Shown here in pieces: positions 1-16,025 of a stretch of 64,000 nt of DNA. Each line of letters starts with the position of its first letter. Position 1 is the first letter of the stretch. Below the pieces are notes generated by a model that was given only the letters and a program-made list of their open reading frames with translations, had not been told where the DNA came from and ran no database searches. Source of the stretch: Chloracidobacterium sp. CP2_5A (GTDB taxonomy: Bacteria > Acidobacteriota > Blastocatellia > Chloracidobacteriales > Chloracidobacteriaceae); the NCBI GenBank assembly GCA_002254845.1, contig NKPT01000001.1, forward strand, positions 15,001 to 79,000. The letters are read 5' to 3'. The translations under genes and the position numbers were made by a program.

Positions 1-17
1 CAGCCTTAGGAGCGCCC

Positions 18-1571
18 ATGCTTGACGTCCCATCCGCCGCGCGGCAGCTCGCCCCATCCGCCTGGCGGGCCGCCGCCGCGCGCCCGCTTGACCGTGAATC
101 GCTCTGCGCCGCGCTCGCCGAGCAAAATCGCCGCTGGCAAGCCGGCCCGGCGACCGCTGCCGCCATCGAGCGATTACGCGACCCCAAAACAGTCGCCGTA
201 GTCACCGGGCAGCAAGCCGGACTCTTTGGCGGTCCGGCACTGACCGCCTGGAAGATCCTCACATCCATCCGCCTCGCCGAGCAGCTTCAGCGGCAAGGGC
301 AGCCGGCCGCGCCGGTGTTCTGGATAGCGTCCGAAGACCATGATTTTGAAGAAGCGCGCCAGACGACCATTCTGACCCGCGATGGGAAACTCCTCGCGAT
401 CGCCTGCCGTCCCGCTTTTGACGGGCAGCCGTCAGTGGGCGCGATCCGGCTGGACGCCGCCGCGACCGCGTCCCTCGCGCAGCTCTCCGACGCCCTGCCG
501 CACAGCGACTTCGCGCCCGATCTGCTGCGCCGCTTGGGAGCGTGTTATCGCCCCGGCCACGGATGGTGCGACGCCTTCGCGATGTGGCTTCATGAGATGT
601 TCGCGCCCTTCGGGCTGATTATTCTCGACCCGCGTGACGCGCGCCTGCGCGCCCTGACGCAGTCGACCTTCGAGTCCGTCATAGACCTTATGCCCTCTGT
701 CATGGAGAGGCTTCTTCGCCAAGCGCGCAACTGGCGAGCGAGCGGAAAGACGCCCCAAGTTAACATCCGCGAAAATGCCACGCCGCTCTTCCTCGAAATC
801 GAAGGCCGCCGGACGGCGCTACTCTCAGATGGTCAGAGCTTTTACCCGAAATCCAACCCGGAGAGCCGCTACACATCGCGCGAGCTGCTTCACATTCTGC
901 GCGACGCCCCGCTGCGCATCACGCCCAACGCTCTGCTGCGCCCGGTGATTCAGGATCAGCTCCTGCCAACCGTCGCCCAAGTCGTGGGACCTGCGGAAGC
1001 CGCTTACTTAGAGCAGTCGCGGTTGATTTATGAAGCCTTGCAGCTGGCGCCGCCGGCGCGCTGGCCGCGAGCTAGCGTCACGCTTGTTGAAAAGCGCCAC
1101 GCTAAGCTGCTTTCTAAGCTGGCGCTCGTGCCGGAAGACATTTTCCTTGGCAGCCAAGCGCTGCTCCGCCGCGCAGCGCTCGCGTCAGCCGACAAACAGG
1201 CACTTGACGCCTTTGAGCGCGTCAAGACGACCATTGAAGGCGAGCTTGACCGCCTTCAGGGCGCGCTCCGCGCGAGCGATTCGTCACTGGCGGATGCATT
1301 ACATCGCGGGCGCGAGAAAATTTTTCATCAGATTAGCGGTCTTGAACAACGATTCCTGGCCAATCAGGCGCAACGGCAGGAGGCCCTGGCGCGCCAACTT
1401 GAGCGCGCGACCGACGCCCTCGCGCCCTACGGGAAGCCGCAGGAGCGAGCCCTGAACCTGCTATCGTTTCTGGTCAAGTACGGCCCAGGCCTCATCGGGC
1501 GCGTCTACGAGCGGATTCGCCTCGACACGGATGAGCATCAGTGGCTCGCCGTCGAGCCGGAAGTCGCCTGA
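18..1571 (+). CDS. bshC: BshC, putative cysteine-adding enzyme of bacillithiol synthesis
   Basis: BshC is the proposed ligase that joins cysteine to GlcN-malate in the last step of bacillithiol synthesis in the cytoplasm. The family signature VVTGQQAGLFGGP lies at residues 61-73, followed by PVFWIASEDHDFEE near 99-112. A helical stretch that could form a coiled coil lies near 370-440. The chosen ATG has AGGAG at positions 8-12 with a 5-base gap. The frame is open back to the window edge, however, and relatives usually carry about 25-30 more N-terminal residues, so the true start may lie outside the window. The 3' end overlaps the convergent membrane protein gene by 34 bp. No other bsh gene is in view, so the pathway is inferred from this protein alone. 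Confidence 0.88.
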   Translation: MLDVPSAARQLAPSAWRAAAARPLDRESLCAALAEQNRRWQAGPATAAAIERLRDPKTVAVVTGQQAGLFGGPALTAWKILTSIRLAEQLQRQGQPAAPVFWIASEDHDFEEARQTTILTRDGKLLAIACRPAFDGQPSVGAIRLDAAATASLAQLSDALPHSDFAPDLLRRLGACYRPGHGWCDAFAMWLHEMFAPFGLIILDPRDARLRALTQSTFESVIDLMPSVMERLLRQARNWRASGKTPQVNIRENATPLFLEIEGRRTALLSDGQSFYPKSNPESRYTSRELLHILRDAPLRITPNALLRPVIQDQLLPTVAQVVGPAEAAYLEQSRLIYEALQLAPPARWPRASVTLVEKRHAKLLSKLALVPEDIFLGSQALLRRAALASADKQALDAFERVKTTIEGELDRLQGALRASDSSLADALHRGREKIFHQISGLEQRFLANQAQRQEALARQLERATDALAPYGKPQERALNLLSFLVKYGPGLIGRVYERIRLDTDEHQWLAVEPEVA

Positions 1572-3154
1572 TAGATGCGAAGCCGCGGATCGCCGCCGCC
1601 AGTGATCTCCGTCCCCCAAACAACGCTGGGGAACTCGCCCAGCTCGTCAGACCACGCCAAGTAGTAGTCGATTTGATGAGCGTCGAGGGCGCGGGCGATG
1701 GCGTCCGGCGCGGCGGCGGGCGCAACGCCGTAGTAGCGCCCGCCAAGAAAGTAGGTCAGATAGAGCGAATAGTGCCACTCGGCGCTTGAGGCCAGGCGCC
1801 CCCGCACGCCTAGCTGTTTCCGCATCGCCTGCGCCGCGCGATACAATCCCCGACAAGTTTCCAGTCCCTCGTCCTTGCCCTGCGCCGCAACCCGCAGCGC
1901 CTGCGCCGGTTGCCAAGCCAGCGCTATTGCGCAAAGCGCGAGCGCGGCGGACCAGGCGGCGCGCGGGCCGCGCGCTATCCAGCCCGCGAAGAGCCAGACG
2001 ACCATCGCGCAGAACAGGTAGGCGAGCGTCCACAAATGACGCGCCTCAACGTAAATAAGCGCGTATCCGGCAAGGTATATCGCGATGGCCGACAGCGCCG
2101 CCCGGCAGCGCCTTCCAGTCTCGGTCTCCGCCTGACGCCACGCGACGACCAAGGCGACGAGCAACAAGGGCAGCGCCAGCGGAAAAAGCTCCGGCAAGAA
2201 GTCACAGGCGATGACGCGCAGCCGCTCAAGCGTCATGACGAGCTGGTACCAGGCAAAGTCGGGCGATTCAAAAACGCTCCAGGGCTGAATCGGCAGGCGC
2301 GTCGGATCCGTCCAGGCGCTGGTATCGCCTGGCTCAAAAGGCGCCCAAAAGCCCTTCTCCATCGGATGCGCAAAGGCCATGCGCGGCCCGGCCCACGCTT
2401 GATTGTACCGCCCGGCCGAGCCGGTCATCCACACGCCGTACTTCCAGCGCAGAGCGACAATCCACAAGCCGCTCAGGGCGCAAAAAGACGCCAGCCCGGC
2501 GACAAAGCTTGCCGCTGAAACGCGCCGGCGCCGCCATTGGAGAAAGCCCCAGAGCGCCCAGTGCGCCAGAAAGAAAGGCAGCGCGAAGGCCTTCGCCATA
2601 TAAGCCAGCGCGCCCAGCGCGCCGCACCCCAAGCCGCGTCGCCAGCTTGGCGGCGACGTGCGGCTCACAAGGAAGCTCAGGTACCACGCCAGCGCCGCCG
2701 CCACGACCAAATCCGGCGTGATGACCGACAGCGCGAAGCGCAGCGTCATCGGGACAGCAGCGGCGACAGCGACGATTCGCGTCCAGACTGGATAACCGCG
2801 CGTCAGGGCCCAGAGTCCAGCCAACGCCGCCGCGCCGCTCCCCAGCAAAGCCAGCTTCACGGCAATTTGAGGCGGCAGCCCGACAACGCGCAGCGCCGCG
2901 GTCAGCCACGACAGCAGCGGCCCCCAGTAAGCGTTTATCGCCCCGCCCAGGTCGCCCCGCGCGTACTTTTCGGCGATGTCGAGATAGGCGATACCGTCGG
3001 GGTTGATCTGAAACTGAAATGCGGGCAGCAGCGTCAACCCCAGCCCAAGGTAGCCGAGCAGCATCCACAGCAGCGGATGACGCAGCCGGGACGATGGGCG
3101 CCGGGTCGACAGGCGAGTCGTGTCAAGCTCGCTGGCTTGGGCTGCATCGCTCAC
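1538..3154 (-). CDS. GT39-like polytopic membrane glycosyltransferase
   Basis: A 538-residue protein with about ten hydrophobic segments. Early in the first loop is the acidic motif INPDGIAYLD, in the place where GT39/ArnT-like (GT-C) enzymes hold catalytic Asp residues. This suggests transfer of a sugar from a polyprenyl-phosphate donor on the outer face of the inner membrane. Donor and acceptor are unknown. The start is GTG at 3154. Its GTGA overlaps the TGA stop of the upstream ABC gene by 4 bp, and AAGGAT sits a suitable distance upstream. A longer in-frame extension to 3229 would run into that gene and lacks a ribosome site. It is the last gene of the leftward operon and converges on bshC with a 34 bp overlap. 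Confidence 0.72.
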   Translation of the reverse strand: MSDAAQASELDTTRLSTRRPSSRLRHPLLWMLLGYLGLGLTLLPAFQFQINPDGIAYLDIAEKYARGDLGGAINAYWGPLLSWLTAALRVVGLPPQIAVKLALLGSGAAALAGLWALTRGYPVWTRIVAVAAAVPMTLRFALSVITPDLVVAAALAWYLSFLVSRTSPPSWRRGLGCGALGALAYMAKAFALPFFLAHWALWGFLQWRRRRVSAASFVAGLASFCALSGLWIVALRWKYGVWMTGSAGRYNQAWAGPRMAFAHPMEKGFWAPFEPGDTSAWTDPTRLPIQPWSVFESPDFAWYQLVMTLERLRVIACDFLPELFPLALPLLLVALVVAWRQAETETGRRCRAALSAIAIYLAGYALIYVEARHLWTLAYLFCAMVVWLFAGWIARGPRAAWSAALALCAIALAWQPAQALRVAAQGKDEGLETCRGLYRAAQAMRKQLGVRGRLASSAEWHYSLYLTYFLGGRYYGVAPAAAPDAIARALDAHQIDYYLAWSDELGEFPSVVWGTEITGGGDPRLRIYQATSGSTASH

Positions 3155-6100
3155 AGGATATCCTTGCTCCGCAGGGCGAGCGCCGTGAACGCGATGAACA
3201 GGAAAAAGAAAACGCCCAGCGCCGCCCAATCAAGCCGCAATCGGCTGAAGTCGTTTAAGAAGCCGACAAAGCGCGACTTGTCCGCAGGCGGATACTTCAC
3301 CTCTGGCGCTTTTGGCTCCGGGTCGAGCGTCGGGAATTGGGGACGCAGGCTGCCAGTTCGCAGAAACGACTCCAGGTCGTCCTTGTATTCATCAAACTTC
3401 GCCTGCTGGCGCCGGCGATAGTCGGCAAGCTCCCGCTTGAAGCTATTTATCGCTCTTTGATTTTCAGCTTTGACGCGCCCGATTTCGCCAGCCTCATCAT
3501 CGTCGTCTTTGCCGCGCAACACGCCGAGTCCGCCCCACGCGACGCCCACCCGCTTGAGCGCGTCATACGACCACATAGCCGGCATCGCTAGGCTCGCGCC
3601 CCTGGATAGGCCCTCATTCGGAAGCAAGAGCCCGCCAAACAAAATCTGCGGAATCAGCGCGAGCGGGACGAGGCTGGTCGCCATTTCCGATGTGCGCACC
3701 AGGGCCGAAATCAACAAGCCCATGGCGATGCCAACCAAGTGTGACAAGAGCAAGTGGGGGAAAACCAGCCACGGCGGGCCCGGCACGGACTCAAAAGCGG
3801 CGGTGACGCCGTAAAGCAAGGCGATCTGCGCCATTCCAAGCAAGGCGAGAACCAGCAGCTTTGAGCCAACATAGGGCAGTATGCCCAGATTGACCATCCG
3901 CTCGCGCCGATAGATGCTGGCTTCCTTGACGATTTCGCGGGCCGCGTTTGAGCAGCCAAACCAGATGGACGAGAGCGCCAACACAAAGTACGGGAAATCC
4001 CGCGCCCAAGTCTCGCCCACCGCCAGCGCGGTCAGGAGCGCGATAATCGGCGCTTGTCCGAATAAAATCGCCAGGTTGAGACGGTCGGCTAGCATGACGC
4101 GCGCATATCGGTCCGAAAGCGTCGCCATCTGCCGCAGGCTTTGAAAGAGTGTAAGGTCGTTGGCGGACGGGCGGGCGGCGATCGAGCCGGTCCGCGCCAG
4201 CTCCGCCAGCGGGGCGGCGATATACTGCCGATAGGCTGCCGACTGCTCGAATTTTTGGCGCCAAGCTTCAGCCTTGGCATCGCTATTCGGATCGCCTAGC
4301 GCGTCAAAAAGCTCCTTGAAGCTCGGGACATTGAAATAGGCCACCGCTTCCTGCGGCGGGCCGTACCACACCAGCCGGCCGCGCATCAGCACCACGATCT
4401 TGTCAAAGAGCTTGACGTTCTCCATCGCATGGGTGGTGAGAATGACCGAGTGACCGCCGGAGGCGATCCGCCGGAAGAGGTGCATGATTTTCTCTTCCGC
4501 GCCCGGGTCGAGGCCCGAGGTCGGCTCGTCCAGAAAAATGATGCCCGGCTGCGTCACCAGCTCGACGGCGATGGAAACGCGCTTGCGCTGCCCGCCGGAA
4601 AGCTGCCCGATGGGCACGGCGCGCCGCGAAGTTAGCCCCGTCACGTCCAGCGCCTCGGCGATGATGCGGTCAATGTCTTCGTCGCTCGTGTCGGACGACA
4701 GCCGCATTTTGGCCACGTAGTAAAGCGTCCGCTCGACGGTCAGCTCCCGGTGAATGATGTCGTCCTGCGGCACGTACCCGATGGACTGCTTGAAGCTGTT
4801 GATGTTTTCATACAGGCTCAAGCCGTTGATCAGCACCAGGCCCTGCTCCGCCGGGCGCATGCCGTTGAGCGCGTCCATGAGCGTGGATTTTCCCGCCCCC
4901 GACGGCCCTAGCAGGCCAACGAACTCATTCGGCGCAATCGCCAGTCGCACCCGATCCAGCAGTCGAATCGTGCCCGAGCCGTCCCGGCTGCGGACCTCCC
5001 TCGTCAAGTCGAGCGCGTCAATGCGCGCCCGGCTGCGCGTGTCAAAAACGGCGACGGCGTCCGGTTCCAGCCGCAGCAGAAACGGCCCGATCTGCACCAC
5101 ATCCGCCGCCCGCAATCGGCATCGAGCGACGCGTCGGCCATTGACATAGACGCCGTTCGTGCTGCCCAGGTCCTCCAGCGTCCAGCCTTGCGCGTCGCGA
5201 CCCAGAGCGGCGTGACGCTTTGAAATCTGAAGCAAGTCAAGCTGGATATCGTTGTCGGGCGCGCGCCCAACCGTGAGGCGGCCCGGCGTCGCGCCCTGCC
5301 CAAAGGGCTTGCGCAGAACGAAGTTTTTGGACTCGCCCATCCGTGGCGCTAAAGTCGCGGACGCGGAGATAACCGTGCCGTCGCCGCCCGTCGCCGACGA
5401 GCCGCCCGACGGGGCGACAAAGCGCAACCGCGCGCCCCCCAAGCCGATTTCAATCACCGCGCCGGACTCGAGCGGCGTGGGCCCGGCAATCCGCCGACCG
5501 TTGACGAACGTGCCATTGAACGACCCCAAATCGCGCGCGACATACGCCCCGCCCTGCCGCTCAATGACGGCATGCCGCCGCGATGCGGTTGGAAACTGGA
5601 CTGGATCCAAGCGAATGGCGTTGCCTTCGTCGCGTCCGACGCCGACCATCGCCTCCGACAAGACAAAGCGCGGCGCGCCTGAGCCATTGAGGAGTTCAAC
5701 GTAGGGAAGCTCGCCGGGAGGCGGCGGCGGGAATGATGACGCGCTTCCCCGGTCGTCGCCGGTCGCGCCGCCGTTGACGGCCGACATCTGCAAGCGCGTG
5801 GCGGGTAGCGCGGCGCTGGGTTGCGGGCGCAACGACGGCGCCGGCGACGCGAGGGAGGTCAATTCAACCCGCTCCAGCCGAATGCTTGGGCCGCCGGGGC
5901 TAAACTGCGCCACATCGCCCGGCGCAAACGGGGCAGGCTCATGCGGCTGAAGGCGCCGCCCGTTGACGAAGGTGCCATAGGCGCTGCCAACATCCGTGAT
6001 GGTCAAGGCGCCGTCGCGGAAGGCGATTTCCGCATGCCGCCGCGAAACGCCTTGCTCGTGATCCTCAAAGCGCAGCCGACACTGCGCCGGATCGCGCCCA

Positions 6101-6177
6101 ACCAGAAAGCTCGTCTCGGCAATCGCTTCCTGTTGGCCGGCGCGCGAGCCAGCCAGATGCGTCACTACCAGCTTCAT
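3151..6177 (-). CDS. Triple-FHA ABC transporter (ABCG-like ATPase fused to permease)
   Basis: A 1008-residue fusion. Three forkhead-associated domains come first: FHA1 about 1-105 (SRRH 45-48), FHA2 about 160-255 (SRRH 199-202), FHA3 about 285-375 (SKRH 319-322). Each keeps the GR, S-x-R-H and N-G positions that bind phosphothreonine. The ATPase has GPSGAGKST at 424-432, signature LSGGQ at 526-530, IIFLDEP at 546-552 and an H-loop TTH. An ABC-2 type membrane domain follows. Between its last membrane segments lies an acidic run and a charged helical stretch of about 90 residues. Known relatives such as mycobacterial Rv1747 have two FHA domains and are controlled by Ser/Thr kinases; no kinase gene lies nearby. 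The ATG at 6177 overlaps the upstream stop by 4 bp (ATGA), which fixes the start. The substrate is unknown, perhaps a lipid or envelope precursor given the neighbours. Confidence 0.9.
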   Translation of the reverse strand: MKLVVTHLAGSRAGQQEAIAETSFLVGRDPAQCRLRFEDHEQGVSRRHAEIAFRDGALTITDVGSAYGTFVNGRRLQPHEPAPFAPGDVAQFSPGGPSIRLERVELTSLASPAPSLRPQPSAALPATRLQMSAVNGGATGDDRGSASSFPPPPPGELPYVELLNGSGAPRFVLSEAMVGVGRDEGNAIRLDPVQFPTASRRHAVIERQGGAYVARDLGSFNGTFVNGRRIAGPTPLESGAVIEIGLGGARLRFVAPSGGSSATGGDGTVISASATLAPRMGESKNFVLRKPFGQGATPGRLTVGRAPDNDIQLDLLQISKRHAALGRDAQGWTLEDLGSTNGVYVNGRRVARCRLRAADVVQIGPFLLRLEPDAVAVFDTRSRARIDALDLTREVRSRDGSGTIRLLDRVRLAIAPNEFVGLLGPSGAGKSTLMDALNGMRPAEQGLVLINGLSLYENINSFKQSIGYVPQDDIIHRELTVERTLYYVAKMRLSSDTSDEDIDRIIAEALDVTGLTSRRAVPIGQLSGGQRKRVSIAVELVTQPGIIFLDEPTSGLDPGAEEKIMHLFRRIASGGHSVILTTHAMENVKLFDKIVVLMRGRLVWYGPPQEAVAYFNVPSFKELFDALGDPNSDAKAEAWRQKFEQSAAYRQYIAAPLAELARTGSIAARPSANDLTLFQSLRQMATLSDRYARVMLADRLNLAILFGQAPIIALLTALAVGETWARDFPYFVLALSSIWFGCSNAAREIVKEASIYRRERMVNLGILPYVGSKLLVLALLGMAQIALLYGVTAAFESVPGPPWLVFPHLLLSHLVGIAMGLLISALVRTSEMATSLVPLALIPQILFGGLLLPNEGLSRGASLAMPAMWSYDALKRVGVAWGGLGVLRGKDDDDEAGEIGRVKAENQRAINSFKRELADYRRRQQAKFDEYKDDLESFLRTGSLRPQFPTLDPEPKAPEVKYPPADKSRFVGFLNDFSRLRLDWAALGVFFFLFIAFTALALRSKDIL

Positions 6178-6761
6178 AGGCTTTCGCGCATCGCGGATGA
6201 TGCCGCTGGACGCAGCCAGACGCGGCATAGGATAACGAGCGCCGCCGCCGCCAGAATGTTGAACGCCATCAGCCAGACCGAATACTGATGCCAGGCGGCG
6301 AAGGTCAGACGAATGGGGTCGTCTAGCGGGAGCTTTTCAATTTCGCCGCCCAGCCCGGCGCGCAGCGCGGACAGCCGCGCCGAAACAACGAGCTTCGACA
6401 GGGCGACATTGAGGGTCATCATCGCCGGCAACGCCAGCAACAGCCCCCCTTTCCACGAGGCAAGCCGCCCCGCGCGCAGCAGCTGCAGCCACTGGAGACC
6501 TATCAGGAGCAGCCCGCACGTCAGCCCCCACCATTCCAGCTTGCCCAGGACGCTGTTGACCAGCGCCCCGGCCAGGGCGCGCGTCGGCAAGACCCCGAAC
6601 GCGCTCGGCGCGACAGCCGCGCTGAAAAAGACCATCGCCCCAAGCCAGAGACTCAAGACGAGCGAATGCGCGGCGTCGAGCGCCGTATCCAAAGGCGTCG
6701 CCCGCGCGACGCGCAGGGCCGAGTTCGCCGCGGGCGCGGCGGCGGAAATAGCTGGCGTCAT
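6174..6761 (-). CDS. DUF4149 (TMEM205-like) membrane protein
   Basis: A 195-residue protein with four to five hydrophobic helices. LWLGAMVFFSAAVAPSAF near residue 40 is typical of the DUF4149/TMEM205-like family, whose function is unknown. The N-terminal 25 residues are Ala-rich and may be disordered. Both ends overlap neighbours by 4 bp (ATGA at 6758-6761 and at 6174-6177), so it is probably translationally coupled to the AI-2E-type permease upstream and the FHA-ABC transporter downstream. A role linked to one of these transporters is an inference from position only. Confidence 0.7.
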   Translation of the reverse strand: MTPAISAAAPAANSALRVARATPLDTALDAAHSLVLSLWLGAMVFFSAAVAPSAFGVLPTRALAGALVNSVLGKLEWWGLTCGLLLIGLQWLQLLRAGRLASWKGGLLLALPAMMTLNVALSKLVVSARLSALRAGLGGEIEKLPLDDPIRLTFAAWHQYSVWLMAFNILAAAALVILCRVWLRPAASSAMRESL

Positions 6762-8044
6762 GGCGTGGAAGCGGTGGCTTCCGCCGTCGCCTCCGCCGGG
6801 GAAGACGACAACGGCGCATTAGGCGAAAGCAAGCCGGACCCGGGCGCGCCGTAGCGATAAAAAGCGGACCTTTCGTAATGCTCGATGGCCAAGGCGGCAA
6901 GGACCTTCCCGACCGCCAGCGCCGGCACGGTGAGGATCACGCCCAAAATGCCAAGCAAATGATGCCCGACTACCAAGCCGATAATGACCAGAAACGGGTG
7001 CAAGTCGAGCCGCTCGCCCAGAACGAACGGCGTTAGATAAAAGCTTTCGACGCTCTGCACAATGACGTAAACGCCGATAATCAGCCCCAGCTGCATCCAG
7101 GATGGCGCGTCCGACATCGCCAGCGTGCAGGTCAGCAGCCCCGCCAAAAACGTGCCGATATAGGGAATCAAGTGCCCAAAGCCCGATAGAAACCCCAGCG
7201 ACAGCGCCGATGGAACGCCCAGCAGGCTAAACCCAAGCGCGTACATCACGGCCATCGACGAGCAAACGACCAGCTGCCCGCGCACGAAAGCGCTCAAAGC
7301 CTCGTCAACTTTCGCCAGCGCGTCCATCACTGTCGCCCGGTGGCGCGCCGGCACGAGCTGCAACGACCGCCGCTGCAAGCCGCTGGCGTCTTTGAGCATG
7401 TAATAGACGAAAAACGGAATGAGCAGCAGGTTGATCAGGCTCGTCACAACCCCAATGGCGTTCGAGAAAGTCGCGCTCAGCCCGACCAAAACCGGCTCAA
7501 TCAATGTCAAGGGGTTGTCAACTCGCTCGCGGACGCTCCCCGCCACCTGCTCGTATTGCGTCGGATAGCGCTCGCGAAGACCTTCGAGGATGGGCTGCGC
7601 AAGCGCCGTAAGCCGCTGGAAGCCTCCCGGAAGCCTCTGGACAGCCTGGGCGAGCTGCGCCGCCAGATTCGGGACAACGATAAACAGCCCGACCGCCAGC
7701 CCCCCAACGGCCACCGCCATGGCGTTCAGCACGGACAGCGTGTGCCGAACATGGGCGCGGCGAATCCAGCGGGCCGTGATGCCATCCAGCCAGTCCGCCA
7801 GCGGCTTGATGAGGTAAGCGAGCGCGCCCGAAATCATAAGCGGCACCAACACTGGCTGAAAGACCCAGGCCAGGCTTTTGAAAGCCGCGGAGAGCAGCTC
7901 CCACGACACCAGCAAAAGCAGCAGGGCCGCCAGTGACGGCAGCCATCGCGCCCAGCGCAGTTGCCGCCAGCTCGCGAGGAGGGGCGCATTCGACGCTTCC
8001 GCGGACGGCGCGCCGCCGCCGTTGGTGATTTGAGATTCATTCAT
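6758..8044 (-). CDS. AI-2E family (PerM/YdiK-like) permease
   Basis: A 428-residue protein with about eight membrane helices. The family-like stretches LINLLLIPFFVYYMLKD and GFGHLIPYIGTFLAG are present, and the VxSxxFYLTPFVLG region lies near residue 340. The family was named for autoinducer-2 export (TqsA), but many members do other jobs, including Na+/H+ exchange, so no substrate is assigned. The N-terminal 25 residues are polar and the C-terminal 30 are Pro/Ala/Ser-rich, both probably disordered. The ATG overlaps the pgsA stop by 4 bp, and its own stop overlaps the DUF4149 start by 4 bp. Confidence 0.88.
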   Translation of the reverse strand: MNESQITNGGGAPSAEASNAPLLASWRQLRWARWLPSLAALLLLLVSWELLSAAFKSLAWVFQPVLVPLMISGALAYLIKPLADWLDGITARWIRRAHVRHTLSVLNAMAVAVGGLAVGLFIVVPNLAAQLAQAVQRLPGGFQRLTALAQPILEGLRERYPTQYEQVAGSVRERVDNPLTLIEPVLVGLSATFSNAIGVVTSLINLLLIPFFVYYMLKDASGLQRRSLQLVPARHRATVMDALAKVDEALSAFVRGQLVVCSSMAVMYALGFSLLGVPSALSLGFLSGFGHLIPYIGTFLAGLLTCTLAMSDAPSWMQLGLIIGVYVIVQSVESFYLTPFVLGERLDLHPFLVIIGLVVGHHLLGILGVILTVPALAVGKVLAALAIEHYERSAFYRYGAPGSGLLSPNAPLSSSPAEATAEATASTP

Positions 8045-8649
8045 GACGAGCGTCCCGCCTGACGACGAAATTCACTCACTTCCTGCGACACAAGCCAGAC
8101 GTAGTGTAAGCCGGAATACGCCGTCATGACAAAAACAACCGCCACGCACCACGGCAGCGCCGGATGCAGCGCGGTCATCGTCTGCGCCAAGAGGTAAATG
8201 ACAATGAGCGCAACCTGGCAAAGCGTGCTGATTTTTCCGGGCAGCGACGGCTTGAAGTCTCGAAAGCCGGTGACGTGGGCGATGATAGCCGCCGCGGTCA
8301 CGATCCCGACGTCGCGCCCGATGACCACGACCGACAGCCACCACGGAATCGGCGCGTTCGCTTCCGAGGGAATCGCCATGACGATGTAGCTCGACAGCAT
8401 CAGCAGCTTATCGGCAATTGGGTCAAGCGCCTGCCCAAGCTGACTCTGGGCGTTGAGCCGCCGCGCCAGCCAGCCGTCCGCCGCGTCAGACAATCCGGCC
8501 AGCGCGAATGCCGCCGTCGCCCACCAAAACCGCCCGCGCACAAAGCAAACCACAAAGACTGGCACCAGCAAAATCCGAAACAGCGTGATGACGTTCGGAG
8601 CGGTCAGGATGTCACGGTAGTGGTCGTTCGACAGCGCGCGCGACTTCAA
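8041..8649 (-). CDS. pgsA: CDP-diacylglycerol-glycerol-3-phosphate 3-phosphatidyltransferase
   Basis: PgsA makes phosphatidylglycerol phosphate from CDP-diacylglycerol and glycerol 3-phosphate at the inner membrane. The CDP-alcohol phosphotransferase motif D-x2-D-G-x2-A-R-x8-G-x3-D-x3-D is complete, starting SDAADGWLARR and closing GQALDPIADK. Several hydrophobic helices surround it and the 202-residue length is normal. The start is a TTG at 8649 with GGAGGG seven bases upstream; no ATG or GTG fits. It overlaps the 3' end of the antiporter gene by 38 bp and its stop overlaps the next start by 4 bp. Family members are hard to tell apart, so a related CDP-alcohol transferase is possible, but the NVITLFRI N-terminus fits PgsA well. 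Confidence 0.87.
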   Translation of the reverse strand: MKSRALSNDHYRDILTAPNVITLFRILLVPVFVVCFVRGRFWWATAAFALAGLSDAADGWLARRLNAQSQLGQALDPIADKLLMLSSYIVMAIPSEANAPIPWWLSVVVIGRDVGIVTAAAIIAHVTGFRDFKPSLPGKISTLCQVALIVIYLLAQTMTALHPALPWCVAVVFVMTAYSGLHYVWLVSQEVSEFRRQAGRSS

Positions 8650-10657
8650 AGGGCGTCCCTCCCCCGACCTGGGCGACTTCGGTGGTCAGGCTTTCCATGG
8701 CTTTCTCCAGACTCTGCGGACCGCCCAGCAAAACGAGCACATCGCCGGCCGCGAGCCTGAAATCGGCGTCGGGATTGATGAGCGTTTCCGAGCCGCGCTG
8801 AACGGCCACGACCGTCACGCCAAAGGTCGGACGCAGCGCCAACTCGCGTAGCGACCGTCCCGCCGCCAGCGCATCCGGTGGCAGGCGCATGGCGGCCGTC
8901 GTGGCGTTTTCAATGACCGTCGCCAACTCGGTAATCAGCCGCTCGCGCCCCGGACACTCCGCGTCAAGCAAGCGATAGCCCTCGCGCCGAATCGCCTCGA
9001 CCTGCTGCTGGATGTACTGGCGCGAAAGCCCGTACTCGCTCAGCGCGCGGGCAAAAATCTCCAGGCTCGTCTCAAACTCCTCCGGGATAACCTGGTTGAC
9101 GCCCAGCGCGTACAGCCCGTTCATCTCCGAAACAAAGCGCGTGCGCACAATAATGTGCAGGTCGGGCTTCATCTCCCGCGCCAGCGCCGCGATGCGCCGG
9201 GTCGCCGTGGCGTCGGAAATGGCGACGACCAAAATGCGCGCGCCCTCGATCCCGGCGGCGTGCAACACTTCACGGCGCGTCCCGTCGCCGTAGATAATCG
9301 GCTCGCTCTGTTTGCGCCCGGCTCGGATGGACTCGATGTTGAGCTCGATGATGCGGTAGGGAATGCTCGCCGCCCGCAGCACTCGCGCCAAGTTGCGCCC
9401 GTTGAGACCATAGCCGGCAATGACGACGTGGCCGCTCGCGGGCGGCAGCTCCGTCGGCGCGACATCGGGCGCGTCCGGCAAGCCCGTCAGACGGCAGAGC
9501 CAATAGCCAAAATCCGGCGCGACGCCCATAAGCAACGGCGTCGCCAGCATGGTGACGATCGAAGCCGCTAGAAAGACCTGATAATCCGCCTGGCTCAACA
9601 AACTCAACTCCGAGCCAGTCTTGAGCAGGATAAACGAAAACTCGCCGATCTGGGCGAGCCCCAGCGCCGCCGTCAGCGCGATGCGCGTCGCGCGTCCCAG
9701 CGCCTTGACCGCCGCGAGCGCGAGCAGCGTCTTTCCGACGATAATCAGCGCAACCAGCCCGGCGACCGGCAGCCAAGCGTCCGCCAGCGTGTCGAATGAC
9801 AGCAGCATGCCGACCGAAACGAAGAAAATCCCATTGAAAATGTCGCGAAAAGGCAAGATGTCGGCGACAATCTGATGGCTGTATTCCGACTCCGACAGCA
9901 CCACCCCGGCGATAAACGCCCCCAGCGCCAGCGACAACCCGGCTTGCGCCGTCAGCCAGGCCGTTCCCAGACAAGCGAGCACGGCGAAGCTCACAAAGAC
10001 TTCCCGGCTGCGGAGCGTCACCAGCCAGCGCAGCAGAAACGGAAACACGCGCCGCGCCATAACCACAATCAACAACACGGCGACGGCCGCCTTCCCCAGC
10101 GTCTTGACCATCTCGGCCGCCGTCACTTGCCCTTTCCCGGCCAGCAGCGGCACGAAGAGCATCATCGGGACAATGCACAAATCCTGAAACAGCAAGATCC
10201 CGATGCCGACGCGCCCGTAGGGCGTGTCCGACTCTGCTCGATCCACATAGGTTTTGAGCACAATCGCCGTGCTCGACAAAGCCACCAGGAAGCCGACAAA
10301 GATCGCCGGCGACCAGGCGAAGTCGGCGATGTAATGCGCGGCGACCGTCCCGGCTGCAACCGTGAGGAAAACTTGAAGCCCGCCGCCCAAGAGGACGACC
10401 CGCTTCATGGCGACCAGCTTTTCCAGCGAAAACTCCAGACCGATCGTGAACAACAACAGGACGACGCCGATTTCCGCCAGCGTCTCCACGGCGTGAATGT
10501 CCTGGACCACGCGCAGCGCTGACGGACCAATCACGATGCCAGTCAGCATATAACCAATCAGCGTCGGCAGTCGCAGCCGCCCGCAAACAAACACGATCGG
10601 CAGGGAAATCAGCAGCAGGAGGACAAGATCCCGAAGCAGCGGTATTTCAATATGCAT
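8612..10657 (-). CDS. Kef-type monovalent cation:proton antiporter with RCK domains
   Basis: A 681-residue CPA2 family protein. Residues 1-390 hold about twelve membrane helices. A TrkA-N (RCK) nucleotide-binding domain follows, with GHVVIAGYGLNGRNLARVL at 409-427 and a GDGT motif about 50 residues on. A TrkA-C domain closes the protein and ends in a typical AGDVLVLLGG stretch. This points to K+ or Na+ efflux in exchange for protons, gated by NAD(H) or another ligand. The ATG at 10657 begins right at the first membrane segment; a 38-residue in-frame extension overlaps hisS and is basic and unlike the family. It lies 23 bp after hisS. Confidence 0.88.
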   Translation of the reverse strand: MHIEIPLLRDLVLLLLISLPIVFVCGRLRLPTLIGYMLTGIVIGPSALRVVQDIHAVETLAEIGVVLLLFTIGLEFSLEKLVAMKRVVLLGGGLQVFLTVAAGTVAAHYIADFAWSPAIFVGFLVALSSTAIVLKTYVDRAESDTPYGRVGIGILLFQDLCIVPMMLFVPLLAGKGQVTAAEMVKTLGKAAVAVLLIVVMARRVFPFLLRWLVTLRSREVFVSFAVLACLGTAWLTAQAGLSLALGAFIAGVVLSESEYSHQIVADILPFRDIFNGIFFVSVGMLLSFDTLADAWLPVAGLVALIIVGKTLLALAAVKALGRATRIALTAALGLAQIGEFSFILLKTGSELSLLSQADYQVFLAASIVTMLATPLLMGVAPDFGYWLCRLTGLPDAPDVAPTELPPASGHVVIAGYGLNGRNLARVLRAASIPYRIIELNIESIRAGRKQSEPIIYGDGTRREVLHAAGIEGARILVVAISDATATRRIAALAREMKPDLHIIVRTRFVSEMNGLYALGVNQVIPEEFETSLEIFARALSEYGLSRQYIQQQVEAIRREGYRLLDAECPGRERLITELATVIENATTAAMRLPPDALAAGRSLRELALRPTFGVTVVAVQRGSETLINPDADFRLAAGDVLVLLGGPQSLEKAMESLTTEVAQVGGGTPFEVARAVERPLP

Positions 10658-10680
10658 CAAGACCCCGTGAAGCGGCGGCG

Positions 10681-11988
10681 CTAGGTTGCGGTTGTTCTTG
10701 TAATGTGGCGAAGCCACTCGCCCGCCGGAACCGACAGTTGCTCGCCGCGCGCTAGGTCGCGCAGCGCCCACTGTTCAGTGACCAGCTCGGCTTCGCCAAG
10801 AATGAGCGCAAAGCGCGCGCCGAGCTTGTTCGCCAGCCGCAGCGCGCCTTTGAGGCTGCGCGGCGTCACATCGAGCAGCGCCGCGACGCCAGCGCGGCGA
10901 GCGTCGCGGACGACGCTCACGGCGCGTTCAAAGGCCGCCTCGCCCAAGTGGATGACGAATACATCGGGCCGCTCCTCCGGCGCGCGGTCCTCGGGCATCG
11001 CCAAAACGACGCGGTCAAGCCCAAGCGCAAAGCCGAAGCCCTTGGTCGGCGGGCCGCCCAGGGTTTCCACGAGGCCGTCGTAGCGCCCGCCGCCCGCCAA
11101 GGCGTTCTGCGCGCCGACGCTCGGCGCATGCGACACGACCTCAAACACCGTCTTCGTGTAGTAGTCCAGCCCGCGCACCAGCCGCGCATCCACAACGCAG
11201 GGAATCCCCGCGGCGTCCAGGTAGCGCTGGACGGCGTCGAAGTGCCTCCGGCACTCGTCATTGAGAAAGTCATAGATGGGCGGCAGCGCGGCAATCAGCG
11301 GCTGATCCTGCTCGGCCTTCGAGTCGAGGATGCGCAGCGGGTTGGTTTCAAAGCGCCGCCGGGAATCATCGGAAAGCTCCTCCAGCCGGTCGGCAAGGGC
11401 CTGCCGAATGGCGGCGACGAAGCGCGGTCGGGTTTCAGCATCGCCGACGGTGTTGACGCGCAGCTCCAGATCGCGCAGGCCGGCGTCGGACAGAATGCCC
11501 ATCACAAGCTCAACGCCCTCGACATCGAGCGCCGGATGATCGCTCGCCCCAAGCGTTTCCGCGCCAATCTGGAAAAACTGTCGGTAGCGGCCGCGCTGCC
11601 CGCGCTCGCGCCGGAACTGTGGCCCGATGTAATAGAGCCGCGCCGTTTCCGCGCGCTTCCACATCTGATGCTGGATGTAGGCGCGGGCCACCGGCGCGGT
11701 GCTTTCCGGGCGCAGCGTAAGGCTTTCGCCCTCGCCGTCGTCGCCGGCGCGGTCGCGCCAGGTATACATTTCCTTCGTCACAATGTCGGTTTCGGCCCCG
11801 ACGCCGCGCGCAAACAGCTCGGCGCGCTCAAATATTGGCGTGCGGATTTCCTGAAACCCATAGCGGCGGAACCAGTCGCGGGCCAGGCTTTCAACAAGCT
11901 GAAAGCGGTGAATAAACGCCGATGCATCGCCGTCATTTGACAGCGCCGCCGGCAGCAGATCGCGCGTATGGGAAGCGGTGCGAATCAT
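10681..11988 (-). CDS. hisS: Histidyl-tRNA synthetase
   Basis: A class II aminoacyl-tRNA synthetase of normal length (435 residues). Motif 2 is FRRERGQRGRYRQF near 125-138, the histidine-specific signature LVRGLDYYTKTVFE lies near 270, GGGRYDGL follows, and motif 3 is GFGFALGLDRVVLA. The C-terminal anticodon-binding domain is present. It appears to head the leftward seven-gene operon that ends near 1538. It is divergent from pyrR, with about 130 bp between the two starts. Confidence 0.97.
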   Translation of the reverse strand: MIRTASHTRDLLPAALSNDGDASAFIHRFQLVESLARDWFRRYGFQEIRTPIFERAELFARGVGAETDIVTKEMYTWRDRAGDDGEGESLTLRPESTAPVARAYIQHQMWKRAETARLYYIGPQFRRERGQRGRYRQFFQIGAETLGASDHPALDVEGVELVMGILSDAGLRDLELRVNTVGDAETRPRFVAAIRQALADRLEELSDDSRRRFETNPLRILDSKAEQDQPLIAALPPIYDFLNDECRRHFDAVQRYLDAAGIPCVVDARLVRGLDYYTKTVFEVVSHAPSVGAQNALAGGGRYDGLVETLGGPPTKGFGFALGLDRVVLAMPEDRAPEERPDVFVIHLGEAAFERAVSVVRDARRAGVAALLDVTPRSLKGALRLANKLGARFALILGEAELVTEQWALRDLARGEQLSVPAGEWLRHITRTTAT

Positions 11989-12117
11989 AGCCCCAATCTA
12001 AACCAGCCGCCCGCCAAGACCAACCATTTCGCCGCCTTGCTTTCAGCCGAGGCAAGCGCCATGGTTACGCGTAGCGGCCCAGCGCCGGCTCACTCCCGTT
12101 TTTTGGCCAGACTGCTT

Positions 12118-12672
12118 ATGGAGTTCATTGAGAAAGTCCGCTTGATGGACGCCGCCGCCATGCAGCGCGCGCTGGCGCGAATGGCGTCTGAAATTGTCGA
12201 GCGCAATCGCGGCGCGGAGAACCTCATCGTGGCCGGCATCCGGCGGCGCGGCGTGCCGCTGGCGGAGCGCATTGCCGACGCGATTGAAAAGCTCGAAGGC
12301 GCCCGACCCAAGCTCGGCGCGCTTGACATCACGCTCTACCGCGACGACCTGTCGCTGGTCGCGCCCAAGCCGGTCATCAACGCGACCGCCATGCCAGACG
12401 ATCTTTCACAGGCGACAGTCGTCATCGTGGACGACGTGCTGTACACCGGGCGAACCATCCGCGCGGCGCTCGACGCTCTGTTTGATCTGGGCCGCCCCCG
12501 GCGGGTGCAGTTGGCGGTCCTGATTGACCGCGGCCACCGCGAAGTGCCCATTCAGGCCGATTTTGTCGGCGAGCGGATTCCGACCAAGGCGACCGAAATC
12601 GTCAAGGTCATGGTCGCCAGCATTGATGGCGACGAGCAGGCGCTGATTGTCGAGCCGAAGACCGCGGCCTGA
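12118..12672 (+). CDS. pyrR: PyrR, bifunctional pyrimidine regulator / uracil phosphoribosyltransferase
   Basis: A 185-residue PRTase-fold protein. The PRPP-binding loop is VVIVDDVLYTGRT, and the N-terminus (ALARMASEIVERNRGAEN) aligns with PyrR from memory. In many bacteria PyrR binds pyr mRNA when UMP is high and also makes UMP from uracil. The ATG at 12118 gives the normal family length; the frame is open further upstream (an ATG at 12061), but that part does not resemble the family. No clear ribosome site was seen, and no obvious PyrR-binding loop or attenuator in the leader. pyrB follows after 3 bp. Confidence 0.92.
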   Translation: MEFIEKVRLMDAAAMQRALARMASEIVERNRGAENLIVAGIRRRGVPLAERIADAIEKLEGARPKLGALDITLYRDDLSLVAPKPVINATAMPDDLSQATVVIVDDVLYTGRTIRAALDALFDLGRPRRVQLAVLIDRGHREVPIQADFVGERIPTKATEIVKVMVASIDGDEQALIVEPKTAA

Positions 12673-12675
12673 CCC

Positions 12676-13599
12676 ATGAAGGACCTCCTTGACACCAGCG
12701 ACCTGACGCCGGCGCTCGTGACCGAGCTGCTCGACCGGGCGGAGCGGTTTTTGCCGCCGACGACAGCCCCGGACGCCATCCGCGACCGCCTGCGCGGCAA
12801 GCATCTGGTGACGCTGTTTTCAGAAGCCTCCACCCGCACCCGCACGTCGTTTGAGCTAGCCGCCAAGCGGCTGGGCTTGAAGGTGGTCAATATCGTCGTC
12901 GGCATGTCAAGCCTGGCCAAGGGCGAAACCCTGCGCGACACCATCCTGACGCTCGACGCCATGATGCCGGATGTGGTCGTCGTGCGGCACGCCGTGGCAG
13001 GCGTGCCGCATTTTATGGCGCGGCTCTCGAAAGCGCATTTCATCAACGCGGGCGACGGCGAGCATGAGCATCCCACGCAGGCGCTGCTCGACGCCTTCAC
13101 GCTCCGGCGGCATTTCGGACGCTTGGAAGGGCTGGAAATCGCCATTTTGGGCGATATTCGCCACAGCCGCGTGGCGCGGTCGAATGTCCGCCTGCTGGCG
13201 ATGATGGGCGCGCATGTGCGGCTTGGCGGACCCCGAACGCTGCGCGCGCCCGGCATCGAAAGGTTCGCCGATGGACAACCCGGCACCGTGCGGGTCGCCG
13301 ATTCGCTGCGGGAAGCTATCGCTGGCGCCGACGCCGTCATGGCGCTGCGCATCCAACAGGAACGCCTCAGCGGCGCGTTTTTCCCGTCGCTCAGCGAATA
13401 CTTCGCCCACTTTGGACTGACCCGCGAGCGGCTGGCCTGGGCCAAGCCCAACGCGCTGGCGCTGCATCCTGGACCCATCAACCGCGAAGTTGAAATCGCC
13501 TCGGACGTCGCCGATGGCGCCCAGTCCGCGATTCAGGCGCAGGTGACGCACGGCGTGGCTGTCCGCATGGCGCTGCTCGATTGGCTTTTGAGCCCATGA
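12676..13599 (+). CDS. pyrB: Aspartate carbamoyltransferase catalytic chain
   Basis: This enzyme condenses carbamoyl phosphate with aspartate, the first committed step of pyrimidine synthesis. The carbamoyl phosphate site STRTRTSFE lies at 52-60, HPTQALLD near 132-139, and GDIRHSRVARSN near 150. The length (307 residues) is standard. It is coupled to pyrR by a 3 bp gap. The usual next gene, dihydroorotase (pyrC), is absent; a 280 bp spacer and a sugar kinase follow instead. Confidence 0.96.
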   Translation: MKDLLDTSDLTPALVTELLDRAERFLPPTTAPDAIRDRLRGKHLVTLFSEASTRTRTSFELAAKRLGLKVVNIVVGMSSLAKGETLRDTILTLDAMMPDVVVVRHAVAGVPHFMARLSKAHFINAGDGEHEHPTQALLDAFTLRRHFGRLEGLEIAILGDIRHSRVARSNVRLLAMMGAHVRLGGPRTLRAPGIERFADGQPGTVRVADSLREAIAGADAVMALRIQQERLSGAFFPSLSEYFAHFGLTRERLAWAKPNALALHPGPINREVEIASDVADGAQSAIQAQVTHGVAVRMALLDWLLSP

Positions 13600-13784
13600 G
13601 CGCCGGCCAGGCAAAGCCCTGGGCAATCAGGCTCGGCGATAAAGCCTGGCGGATGCCGCGAGCGACGCCGCGCCTTTCTTGCCTTACGCGATCTAGTACC
13701 GAGCCGGCGCTCGAAGCTTCCAGCCCGAATCCTCCAGTCGGCCGCCGCCGGCGACCCGCTCGCCACGGGTTTTCCGGGCCGACC

Positions 13785-13807
13785 GCAAGTTTTTCAGACT
13801 TGCTTTT
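13785..13807 (+). terminator. Short hairpin with T run after pyrB
   Basis: GCAAGT at 13785-13790 pairs with ACTTGC at 13798-13803 around a 7-base loop, followed by TTTT. This is a weak Rho-independent terminator shape in the 280 bp spacer between pyrB and the PfkB kinase. The rest of that spacer shows no gene. Confidence 0.4.
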
Positions 13808-13879
13808 CAGATGGATTTTTCTTCATTCTGTGAAGCAAGGATTTTCCCAACCCTGCGCCCAGGAATTTACCTAAAGCCC

Positions 13880-14803
13880 ATGAGTATCCTCGTTGTGGGG
13901 ACGGTCGCCTTCGATCACGTCAAGACCCCCTTTGACGAGCGCGCCAATGTCTTGGCCGGCGCGGCGACCTACTTTTCCATCGCAGCCTCTTTCTTCACGC
14001 CCGTCAGCATCGTCGGGATCGTCGGGGACGACTTCACGGCCGAACACGAGCGCGTCTTCGATGCGCGCGGCATCGATTTATCCGGGCTTGAGCGCCGCGC
14101 CGGCGGGAAAACGTTCCGCTGGACGGGCGAGTACGGCTATGACTTCAACACCCGGACGACGCTTGACACCCAACTCAACGTCTTTGCCGACTTTCAGCCG
14201 CGCATCTCCGCCGCCCAGCAAGATATTCCCTACCTGTTTCTCGGCAACGCGCACCCGTCGCTTCAGCGCGACGTTCAGCGGCAGAGCCGGGCGCGCCTGA
14301 CGGTCATGGACACCATGGACTTCTGGATTCAGGGCACGCCCGACGAGCTGCGCGAGACGCTTCAGCGCATAGACATGCTGATTATCAATGACGAGGAAGC
14401 CCGCCAGCTGGCGCGCGACCCGAATGTGATCCGCGCCGCCAAGGCCATTATGGCCATGGGTCCGAAGCGCTTGATCGTCAAGCGCGGCGAGTATGGCGCG
14501 ACGCTCTTCGGCGACGGCTCATTTTTCGCCATCCCCGGCTTTCCGCAGGAAAATGTCGCCGATCCGACTGGCGCGGGCGATACGTTCGCGGGCGGCGTCC
14601 TGGGCTACCTTGCCGCCACCGGGAGCGGACTGGAAGAGGAATCGCTGCGCAAAGCGATGATTTACGGCTCGGTTATGGCGTCATTCGCCATTGAAGCGTT
14701 TGGAACGGAACGCCTGCTGTCGCTGACCCGCGACGAAATCAATGACCGTTACCGGCAGTTCAAGAGCATGACCTACTTTGACAGCATCGAGCACCGCTTC
14801 TAA
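13880..14803 (+). CDS. PfkB family carbohydrate/nucleoside kinase
   Basis: A ribokinase-fold kinase of 307 residues. The ATP/anion-hole motif DPTGAGDTFAGG carries the catalytic Asp (GAGD), and the N-terminal SILVVGTVAFDHVKTP strand is typical. The substrate cannot be told from sequence; ribokinase, adenosine kinase and sugar kinases all share this fold. The ATG at 13880 starts at the first beta strand; an in-frame extension of 23 residues is unlike the family. A weak AGGA lies 15 bases upstream. It stands between pyrB and pilT, 31 bp before the pilT start, so it may be co-transcribed with pilT. Confidence 0.88.
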   Translation: MSILVVGTVAFDHVKTPFDERANVLAGAATYFSIAASFFTPVSIVGIVGDDFTAEHERVFDARGIDLSGLERRAGGKTFRWTGEYGYDFNTRTTLDTQLNVFADFQPRISAAQQDIPYLFLGNAHPSLQRDVQRQSRARLTVMDTMDFWIQGTPDELRETLQRIDMLIINDEEARQLARDPNVIRAAKAIMAMGPKRLIVKRGEYGATLFGDGSFFAIPGFPQENVADPTGAGDTFAGGVLGYLAATGSGLEEESLRKAMIYGSVMASFAIEAFGTERLLSLTRDEINDRYRQFKSMTYFDSIEHRF

Positions 14804-14834
14804 CCGCCACGTCAGCTCACGGGAGTCCCGGCCT

Positions 14835-16025
14835 ATGCAATCCCCGCTCACCATTGATACGCTTCTCGCCCTGGCCTGCTCCAAAGGCGCTTCCGACCTC
14901 CATATCAAGGCTGGCAGCCATCCGTTTATTCGCGTCAATGGCGAGCTGCTGCCGCTGACAGATGTTCAGCGCCTGGCGCCGGAGGACACGCTCGCCATGG
15001 CGTTTAGCATCATGAACAACCGCCAGAAGCAGCGCTTCAAGGACGCTTGCGAGGTGGATATCGCCTATGGCGTCTCCGGGCTAGGGCGCTTTCGGTGCAA
15101 CGTCTTTCAGCAACGCGGCGCGGTGGGGATGGTCTTTCGCGTCATCCCGATGACGGTGCGAACCATCGCGGAGCTACAGCTTCCAAGCGTGATCGAAAAA
15201 ATCGCCGAAGAGCGGCGCGGGCTGGTGCTGGTGACCGGCACGACTGGCTCGGGCAAGTCCACGACGCTGGCAGCGATGATTGATTGCATCAATCGCAACC
15301 GAATGGAGCACATCATCACGATCGAGGATCCGATCGAATTCCTCCACCGCGACCGGCGCTCGTTTATTAATCAGCGCGAAGTGGATGTGGATACGCGCAA
15401 CTTTCACGAAGCGCTGCGGGGCGCGCTGCGCCAGGACCCGGACGTGATTCTCGTCGGCGAAATGCGCGATCAGGAAACCATCGAGACGGCGCTGACGGCC
15501 GCGGAAACCGGGCACCTGGTGCTTTCCACGCTGCACACGCTCGACGCGACGGAAACCATCACGCGCATTGTTTCCATCTTTCCGCCGCACCAGCAGCAGG
15601 CCATTCGCCTGCAACTGGCCTCAGTGCTCAGGGCCGTCGTCTCGCAGCGGCTGATTCGCAACAAGGACGGCAGCGGGCGCGTGCCGGCCGTCGAGGTGCT
15701 GATTTCGACCGCCTACATCCGCGACTGCATCGTGAACCAGGAAAAAACGCCGCACATCCGCGACGCCATCGCGCAGGGCACGTCGCAGTACGGCATGCAG
15801 ACCTTTGATCAATCCCTTCACGACCTGCTCGCCCGCGGCTTGATCTCCTATGAGCAGGCGCTGGCTGGAGCGAGTAATCGGGACGAGTTTGTGCTCCGCA
15901 CAAAGGGCATTCAGACCACGACCGACCAAGCGCGCGAGGAAATGGAAAAGCTCATCACGACGCGCGCCGGCGACGTCAGCCTGACGCCCGCGGCGCCGGC
16001 AACGCCGCCAATTAGTCGGTACTAG
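14835..16025 (+). CDS. pilT: PilT, type IV pilus retraction ATPase
   Basis: A hexameric secretion-type ATPase that depolymerises type IV pili for twitching. It has GASDLHI near residue 18, Walker A GTTGSGKST at 135-143, the Asp box IITIEDPIEF, Walker B DPDVILVGEMRD and the His box GHLVLSTLHT. The last 20 residues are a Pro/Ala tail. ATG 14835 has GGGAG nine bases upstream. No other pil gene is in the window. The stop is 19 bp from the convergent phoR stop. Confidence 0.93.
   Translation: MQSPLTIDTLLALACSKGASDLHIKAGSHPFIRVNGELLPLTDVQRLAPEDTLAMAFSIMNNRQKQRFKDACEVDIAYGVSGLGRFRCNVFQQRGAVGMVFRVIPMTVRTIAELQLPSVIEKIAEERRGLVLVTGTTGSGKSTTLAAMIDCINRNRMEHIITIEDPIEFLHRDRRSFINQREVDVDTRNFHEALRGALRQDPDVILVGEMRDQETIETALTAAETGHLVLSTLHTLDATETITRIVSIFPPHQQQAIRLQLASVLRAVVSQRLIRNKDGSGRVPAVEVLISTAYIRDCIVNQEKTPHIRDAIAQGTSQYGMQTFDQSLHDLLARGLISYEQALAGASNRDEFVLRTKGIQTTTDQAREEMEKLITTRAGDVSLTPAAPATPPISRY

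Follow-up and report, generated by a model that had tools for sequence, protein, structure and literature searches.

The window analysed here, a 64,000-nucleotide stretch of the Chloracidobacterium sp. CP2_5A contig NKPT01000001.1 (positions 15,001 to 79,000), lies on contig 25 (C25) of a 3.41-Mb genome assembled in 385 contigs (G000). Seven genes follow one another on its minus strand from position 11988 to 1538, as the original prediction had described and as the coordinates of the open reading frames (ORFs) and the family matches confirm. They encode the histidyl-tRNA synthetase HisS, a cation:proton antiporter, a pgsA-like phosphatidyltransferase, an AI-2E family transporter, a DUF4149 membrane protein, an ATP-binding cassette (ABC) transporter with three FHA domains (hereafter FHA-ABC), and a multi-pass membrane protein that had been labelled GT39-like (Table 1). 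On balance, we favour reading this row as a composite, in which a hisS-to-DUF4149 block has been combined with a phosphothreonine-regulated FHA-ABC exporter and its membrane partner. Sequence comparisons suggest that the most stable core is FHA-ABC joined to the GT39-like protein, that is, a putative three-FHA exporter with a co-packed and nearly family-specific membrane protein.

Table 1. Genes of the minus-strand row and the genes at its two boundaries, with positions in the window.
Feature	Coordinates	Strand	Evidence and details
hisS, histidyl-tRNA synthetase, 435 aa	10681..11988	-	TIGR00442, 430.2 bits (cut-off 286.75)
Kef/CPA2-type monovalent cation:proton antiporter, 681 aa from ATG	8612..10657	-	Pfam Na_H_Exchanger, TrkA_N, TrkA_C
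pgsA-like CDP-alcohol phosphatidyltransferase, 202 aa, TTG start	8041..8649	-	Pfam CDP-OH_P_transf, E 1.1e-35
AI-2E family transporter, 428 aa, ATG start, ATGA overlap with pgsA	6758..8044	-	PF01594, E 4.8e-55
DUF4149 membrane protein, 195 aa, ATG start, ATGA overlap with AI-2E gene	6174..6761	-	PF13664, E 2.7e-10
Three-FHA ABC transporter (FHA-ABC), 1008 aa, ATG start	3151..6177	-	Pfam FHA (three), ABC_tran, ABC2_membrane
'GT39-like' multi-pass membrane protein, 538 aa, GTG start, GTGA overlap	1538..3154	-	Hydropathy, 7-row alignment
bshC, convergent boundary of the row	18..1571	+	TIGR03998, 430.9 bits
pyrR-like phosphoribosyltransferase ORF, divergent neighbour of hisS, other boundary	11968..12672	+	Pfam Pribosyltran

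Overlaps were found at five of the six junctions. At four of them (pgsA/AI-2E, AI-2E/DUF4149, DUF4149/FHA-ABC and FHA-ABC/GT39-like) a start codon lies exactly at the 4-bp position, and the antiporter and pgsA-like genes overlap by 38 bp; all of these overlaps had been claimed beforehand, and the start codons at the junctions bear them out. Alternative starts would change some of the spacings: a GTG would convert the 23-nt gap between hisS and the antiporter gene (ATG) into an overlap of 91, the next possible pgsA start lies 40 nt past the antiporter stop, a more upstream ATG of FHA-ABC would give an overlap of 55, and a TTG of the GT39-like gene one of 79. The frequency of the 4-bp overlap in the row exceeds the local rate, with 4/6 junctions against 3/28 same-strand neighbours elsewhere in the window (7/34 overall; Fisher p 0.0096), in a comparison that was picked after the fact and that relied on a home-made gene caller taking the longest ORFs. 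Promoter-like sites (3 found, 1.6 expected) and terminator-like sites (22 found, 14.5 expected) were nearly all intragenic and uninformative, and an Rfam scan of window positions 1-16000 gave no match. That 4-bp options also occur among the other same-strand pairs agrees with plain packing in a compact genome, in which case the row would have no joint meaning and FHA-ABC and its neighbour would merely share a transcript. We regard this explanation as possible but doubtful.

The junctions were compared in seven genomes of the genus, namely G000 and six others (G001-G006), of which G002 is truncated where its contigs end. The 4-bp overlap was present in 7/7 genomes at pgsA/AI-2E and at FHA-ABC/GT39-like, and at the latter junction also in G008, a member of another genus of the same family. 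In all eight genomes where the GT39-like gene adjoins FHA-ABC, a start codon is kept at the 4-bp position; this constancy in two genera, when a number of other joins vary in spacing, argues against packing alone. At AI-2E/DUF4149 the 4-bp overlap was found in 5/7 genomes, G001 having a gap of 27 nt and G004 about 6 kb between the two genes. Antiporter/pgsA spacing ranged from -38 to +3 nt (six genomes measured) and hisS/antiporter spacing from 18 to 62 nt (five genomes measured).

The join between DUF4149 and FHA-ABC was present in 5/7 genomes, with 4 bp only in G000 and G002 and gaps of 39-63 nt in G001, G004 and G005. It was absent from G003 and G006, in which both halves of the row are intact, so the boundary between the two modules is visible within the genus. 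In G006, the hisS-antiporter-pgsA-AI-2E-DUF4149 genes lie with pyrR-pyrB on one contig, and the FHA-ABC-GT39-like pair with bshC on another; in G003, both blocks share a contig on opposite strands, and DUF4149 is about 10 kb beyond the GT39-like gene. The G004 insert between AI-2E and DUF4149 (L035:1865-7552) carries genes for a C5-cytosine DNA methylase and a Vsr endonuclease, along with several ORFs on the reverse strand; three of these ORFs had no match in a Pfam scan. The insert may be a restriction-modification island.

Outside the genus, the relatives compared were other family members (G007-G009), members of the same order (G010-G013) and genomes of the same class, including a Pyrinomonadaceae-like family (f4), in assemblies of 20 to 1090 contigs. 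The expectation that the gene order would be conserved in other Acidobacteriota held for sub-blocks, and the full order was not seen. The pgsA gene adjoins AI-2E in G007, G008, G009, G010, G011 and G013, while G012 has AI-2E and no close pgsA match; DUF4149 follows AI-2E in G008 and G009 and is about 3 kb away in G007. In seven other genomes of the class, the best pgsA and AI-2E matches were on different contigs (six) or about 650 kb apart (one), the AI-2E matches being weak. The hisS and pgsA genes were on different contigs in all six of the fragmented family and order genomes that have both (G007-G011 and G013), and antiporter matches at E<=1e-40, found in three of the seven family and order genomes (G009, G010, G012), were on contigs without hisS or pgsA. 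No gene of the hisS-to-DUF4149 block was found near FHA-ABC in the fetched flanks of 21 loci with a readable upstream side (L039-L059; 19 outside the family, from 18 genomes, plus G007 and G009), nor was the DUF4149/FHA-ABC join seen at these loci; the G008 contig ends at the FHA-ABC start, which makes its upstream side unreadable. In G010-G013, the FHA-ABC query gave no more than weak ABC-type matches, though relatives in the family and the class have FHA-ABC.

In a tree of 15 FHA-ABC proteins, G003 and G006 were sisters (100/99), as were G000 and G002 (100/100). Since G003 and G006 are sisters, a single loss of the DUF4149/FHA-ABC join fits, and the simplest history would be a single joining event, no later than the root of the genus, with one loss afterwards, two gains being the alternative. 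The original prediction had seen the row as a unit for envelope lipid modification or export under Ser/Thr kinase control. In such a single functional unit, pgsA would supply phospholipid, the last gene would glycosylate it, FHA-ABC would export it, the antiporter would balance ions and Ser/Thr kinases would control the whole. The tight packing, with most junctions overlapping, and the join of DUF4149 to FHA-ABC in five genomes of the genus favour such a unit, but G003 and G006 carry the two halves intact and apart from each other, and for this reason a seven-gene pathway is not our lead reading. The insert in G004, the location of hisS off the pgsA contig in the (fragmented) family and order genomes, the location of the antiporter apart from both genes in the three genomes with a close match, and the lack of support for the glycosyltransferase label (see below) also speak against one functional unit, which we consider quite unlikely.

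FHA-ABC contains, in approximate residues, FHA1 (5-100), FHA2 (160-262), FHA3 (290-376), a nucleotide-binding domain (400-615) and a membrane domain (699 to the end); the Walker A, signature and Walker B motif strings could all be placed in the chain. This domain order in a single chain is that of the FHA-ABC (Rv1747-like) family, and the protein is probably an exporter. Both Pfam and a home-made profile detected three FHA domains instead of the two of Rv1747, and FHA-ABC was therefore classed as a variant and not as an Rv1747 orthologue. The home-made profile, which was used for the counts across relatives, gave three FHA domains in 7/7 genus members, 13/13 f4 loci, 5/5 ORFs from named Pyrinomonadaceae (one record is also among the 13), 3/6 loci of other families of the class, and 2/3 other family members, the third being cut by a contig end. 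Records under names other than Acidobacteriota or Pyrinomonadaceae supplied 80 ORFs, of which one (Ktedonobacterales, L088) has three FHA domains, 63 have two, 11 have one and 5 have none; low counts are lower bounds, because some of these ORFs are interrupted by a contig end or a frame break.

The Arg, Ser and Asn of the FHA loop, which we take to be the phosphothreonine-binding residues, are kept in FHA2 and FHA3 in 18/18 alignment rows; FHA1 keeps Arg and Ser, but its Asn is replaced by Tyr or Phe in the 17/17 rows that reach it. The chain also continues for 160 residues past residue 849 (160-162 in the genus and 145-176 in f4), compared with 88-107 in cyanobacterial (17/17) and 80-97 in mycobacterial (27/27) ORFs. 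Hydropathy places the extra length between the last two membrane helices, and the resulting loop would presumably be on the outer side, if the topology is as in ABCG proteins. A long C-terminal stretch is not exclusive to these groups, as 5/74 measured outside ORFs reach at least 125 residues (up to 165), and two loci of the class, L058 and L059, have short stretches of 93 and 97 residues. A literature search for an ABC transporter with 'three FHA domains' found no such work, and one on FHA domains and serine threonine kinases found nothing on Chloracidobacterium; for FHA domains, ABC transporters and Acidobacteria together, the only paper listed was on toxin systems.

Ser/Thr kinase control, which had been proposed for the whole row, is plausible for the transporter, given that it carries FHA domains and that its relatives in other lineages have kinase genes close by, but a kinase in the row itself was not found. 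None of the 35 Pkinase matches above the cut-off in G000 falls in the row, and among the matches listed the only one on C25 is outside the window. Kinase neighbours were counted, for ORFs flanked on each side by 3.3 kb or more of sequence, as kinase ORFs within 3.3 kb that were recognised by a home-made profile, which may miss divergent kinases. None was detected at five genus loci, in the readable sequence of flanks that consist partly of N, or at the single locus from another family member. Kinase ORFs were detected at 8/13 f4 loci and 2/4 loci elsewhere in the class, and beside 6/11 cyanobacterial, 4/14 other actinobacterial and 2/19 mycobacterial ORFs. For the f4 loci, which are kin, the rate expected from the genome kinase density is 4-6%. 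Because the mycobacterial count is only 2/19, the association with kinase genes owes most of its support to the Pyrinomonadaceae-like and cyanobacterial loci.

The gene near FHA-ABC at L041:5811-8057 encodes, according to Pfam, a fusion of a Ser/Thr kinase with PEGA and FGE-sulfatase domains, and a gene of the same cluster in L053 encodes a kinase with FGE-sulfatase. Genes of this cluster are directly upstream of FHA-ABC in L041, L042 and L048, and are separated from it by two genes in L044, L045, L047 and L049, where the intervening genes belong to one other cluster, scanned in L044 as a histidine kinase with a receiver. The Pyrinomonadaceae proteins share with FHA-ABC the three FHA domains and the long C-terminal stretch, present in all four named-record ORFs extending that far, but they differ in the frequent presence of a kinase gene nearby and in the absence of a GT39-like match alongside (L041-L053).

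The studied relative, Rv1747 of Mycobacterium tuberculosis, likewise has FHA domains, a nucleotide-binding domain and a membrane domain in a single chain. Mycobacterial homologues (27 ORFs from 20 loci, Rv1747 itself not being among the sequences compared) are 29-32% identical to FHA-ABC over the aligned part; at L115, L125, L127, L138 and L139 such ORFs occur in tandem rows of two or three. Rv1747 has two FHA domains and forms a two-gene operon with the kinase gene pknF, according to one study (PMC3908365), whereas the row described here is without a kinase gene. Loss of Rv1747 lowers phosphatidylinositol mannosides, whose export by Rv1747 is proposed and unproven (PMC5549992), and the phosphorylated FHA region forms condensates, as stated in a review (PMC9312465). 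Cyanobacterial FHA-ABC proteins (Nostoc, Okeania, Microcoleus and others) have the same domain order and 36-38% identity, with two FHA domains in 15/17 ORFs and none in the two shortest.

The GT39-like protein is multi-pass by hydropathy, and the sugar-transferase label that it had received failed in the Pfam, NCBIfam and PDB profile tests. Neither Pfam nor NCBIfam gave a match to the protein at E<=0.001, and its profile had no PDB match at E up to 10. An assignment to GT39/PMT_2 was rejected, since PMT_2 scored 9.5 bits against a cut-off of 26.1 (E 1.4) in 1/7 members. Of two homologues scanned as stepping stones, one had no match and the other a sub-threshold match to an unrelated family; a single-sequence structure model was unusable (mean predicted local distance difference test score, pLDDT, 45.9). 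A stretch after the first helix, INPDG...DIA, is invariant in the 7-row alignment and is reminiscent of GT-C enzymes. In a search of 162 genomes, strong matches were found in 9/10 genomes of the family, and weak, partial matches in 17 further genomes of the class, all from f4. A plasmid search gave no match. In G001, a second copy of the gene follows the first (L037:13213-14765) and is split across two reading frames.

The pgsA-like protein contains the CDP-OH_P_transf domain of PgsA (CDP-diacylglycerol-glycerol-3-phosphate 3-phosphatidyltransferase), and its DAADGWLARR...G...D...D string presumably represents the CDP-alcohol phosphatidyltransferase motif, which PgsA shares. Its only PDB match at E<=0.001 was the PgsA chain 7drj, but TIGR00560 scored 91.6 bits, below the NCBIfam cut-off of 109.1. 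At the ends of the row, the 3' ends of the GT39-like gene and bshC overlap convergently by 34 bp (1538-1571). The same convergent neighbour, bshC, closes the row in the window and at all five other genus loci extending that far, in G001 with the second GT39-like copy in between. Unusually long apparent ORFs next to bshC in relatives proved to be stretches of N translated through and were discarded. On the hisS side, pyrR-pyrB forms a divergent boundary; the pyrR-like ORF in Table 1 is the longest ORF, and its true start is probably further in.

Under the favoured composite reading, a block made of hisS, the antiporter gene, the old pgsA-AI-2E pair and DUF4149 would have been placed upstream of a separate unit of FHA-ABC and the GT39-like gene, in or before the ancestor of the genus. 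FHA-ABC would act as an ABC exporter in the form of a dimer, and the FHA domains at its N-terminus could bind phosphothreonine on the transporter itself or on a partner phosphorylated by one of the Ser/Thr kinases of the cell. Binding may then alter the activity or the clustering of the transporter, as proposed for Rv1747. The cargo could be an envelope lipid or oligosaccharide, which the GT39-like membrane protein would process or load. Read-through from the upstream block would provide steady expression of both halves without a shared pathway.

Several observations weigh against this reading. The DUF4149/FHA-ABC join is kept in most genomes of the genus, and the tree agrees with a join that is ancestral; selection may thus conceivably have favoured co-expression of all seven genes. 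The genus genomes are close kin, and their 7/7 counts are therefore not independent; many of the other relatives are fragmented, so that different contigs are no proof of distance. G007 has its GT39-like homologue (37% identity) and its FHA-ABC gene on separate contigs, which would also suit plain packing, and G009 has no GT39-like match, indicating that the pair is not required everywhere in the family. PMC3908365 describes a normal cell-wall structure of the Rv1747 mutant by microscopy, which calls for caution about a lipid cargo.

A bolder proposal, which we find unlikely though worth stating, is that FHA-ABC and its membrane partner form a two-protein export machine that has gone unrecognised in Chloracidobacterium-like Acidobacteriota. 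The three FHA domains, one with an altered loop, would read several phosphothreonines and possibly drive clustering, and the enlarged extracytoplasmic loop would deliver the cargo to a membrane enzyme peculiar to the family, to be completed outside. Such a machine, without a neighbouring kinase gene, would answer to the general kinase network.

Overlaps of 4 bp in a single genome can mislead; a comparison of several species shows which of them last, and so tells probable partners from genes that are only adjacent. The transporter with phosphothreonine-reading domains that has been studied is Rv1747, for which the cargo has yet to be proven; a harmless three-FHA relative with a co-packed membrane partner would offer a second system for the study of both cargo and kinase control.

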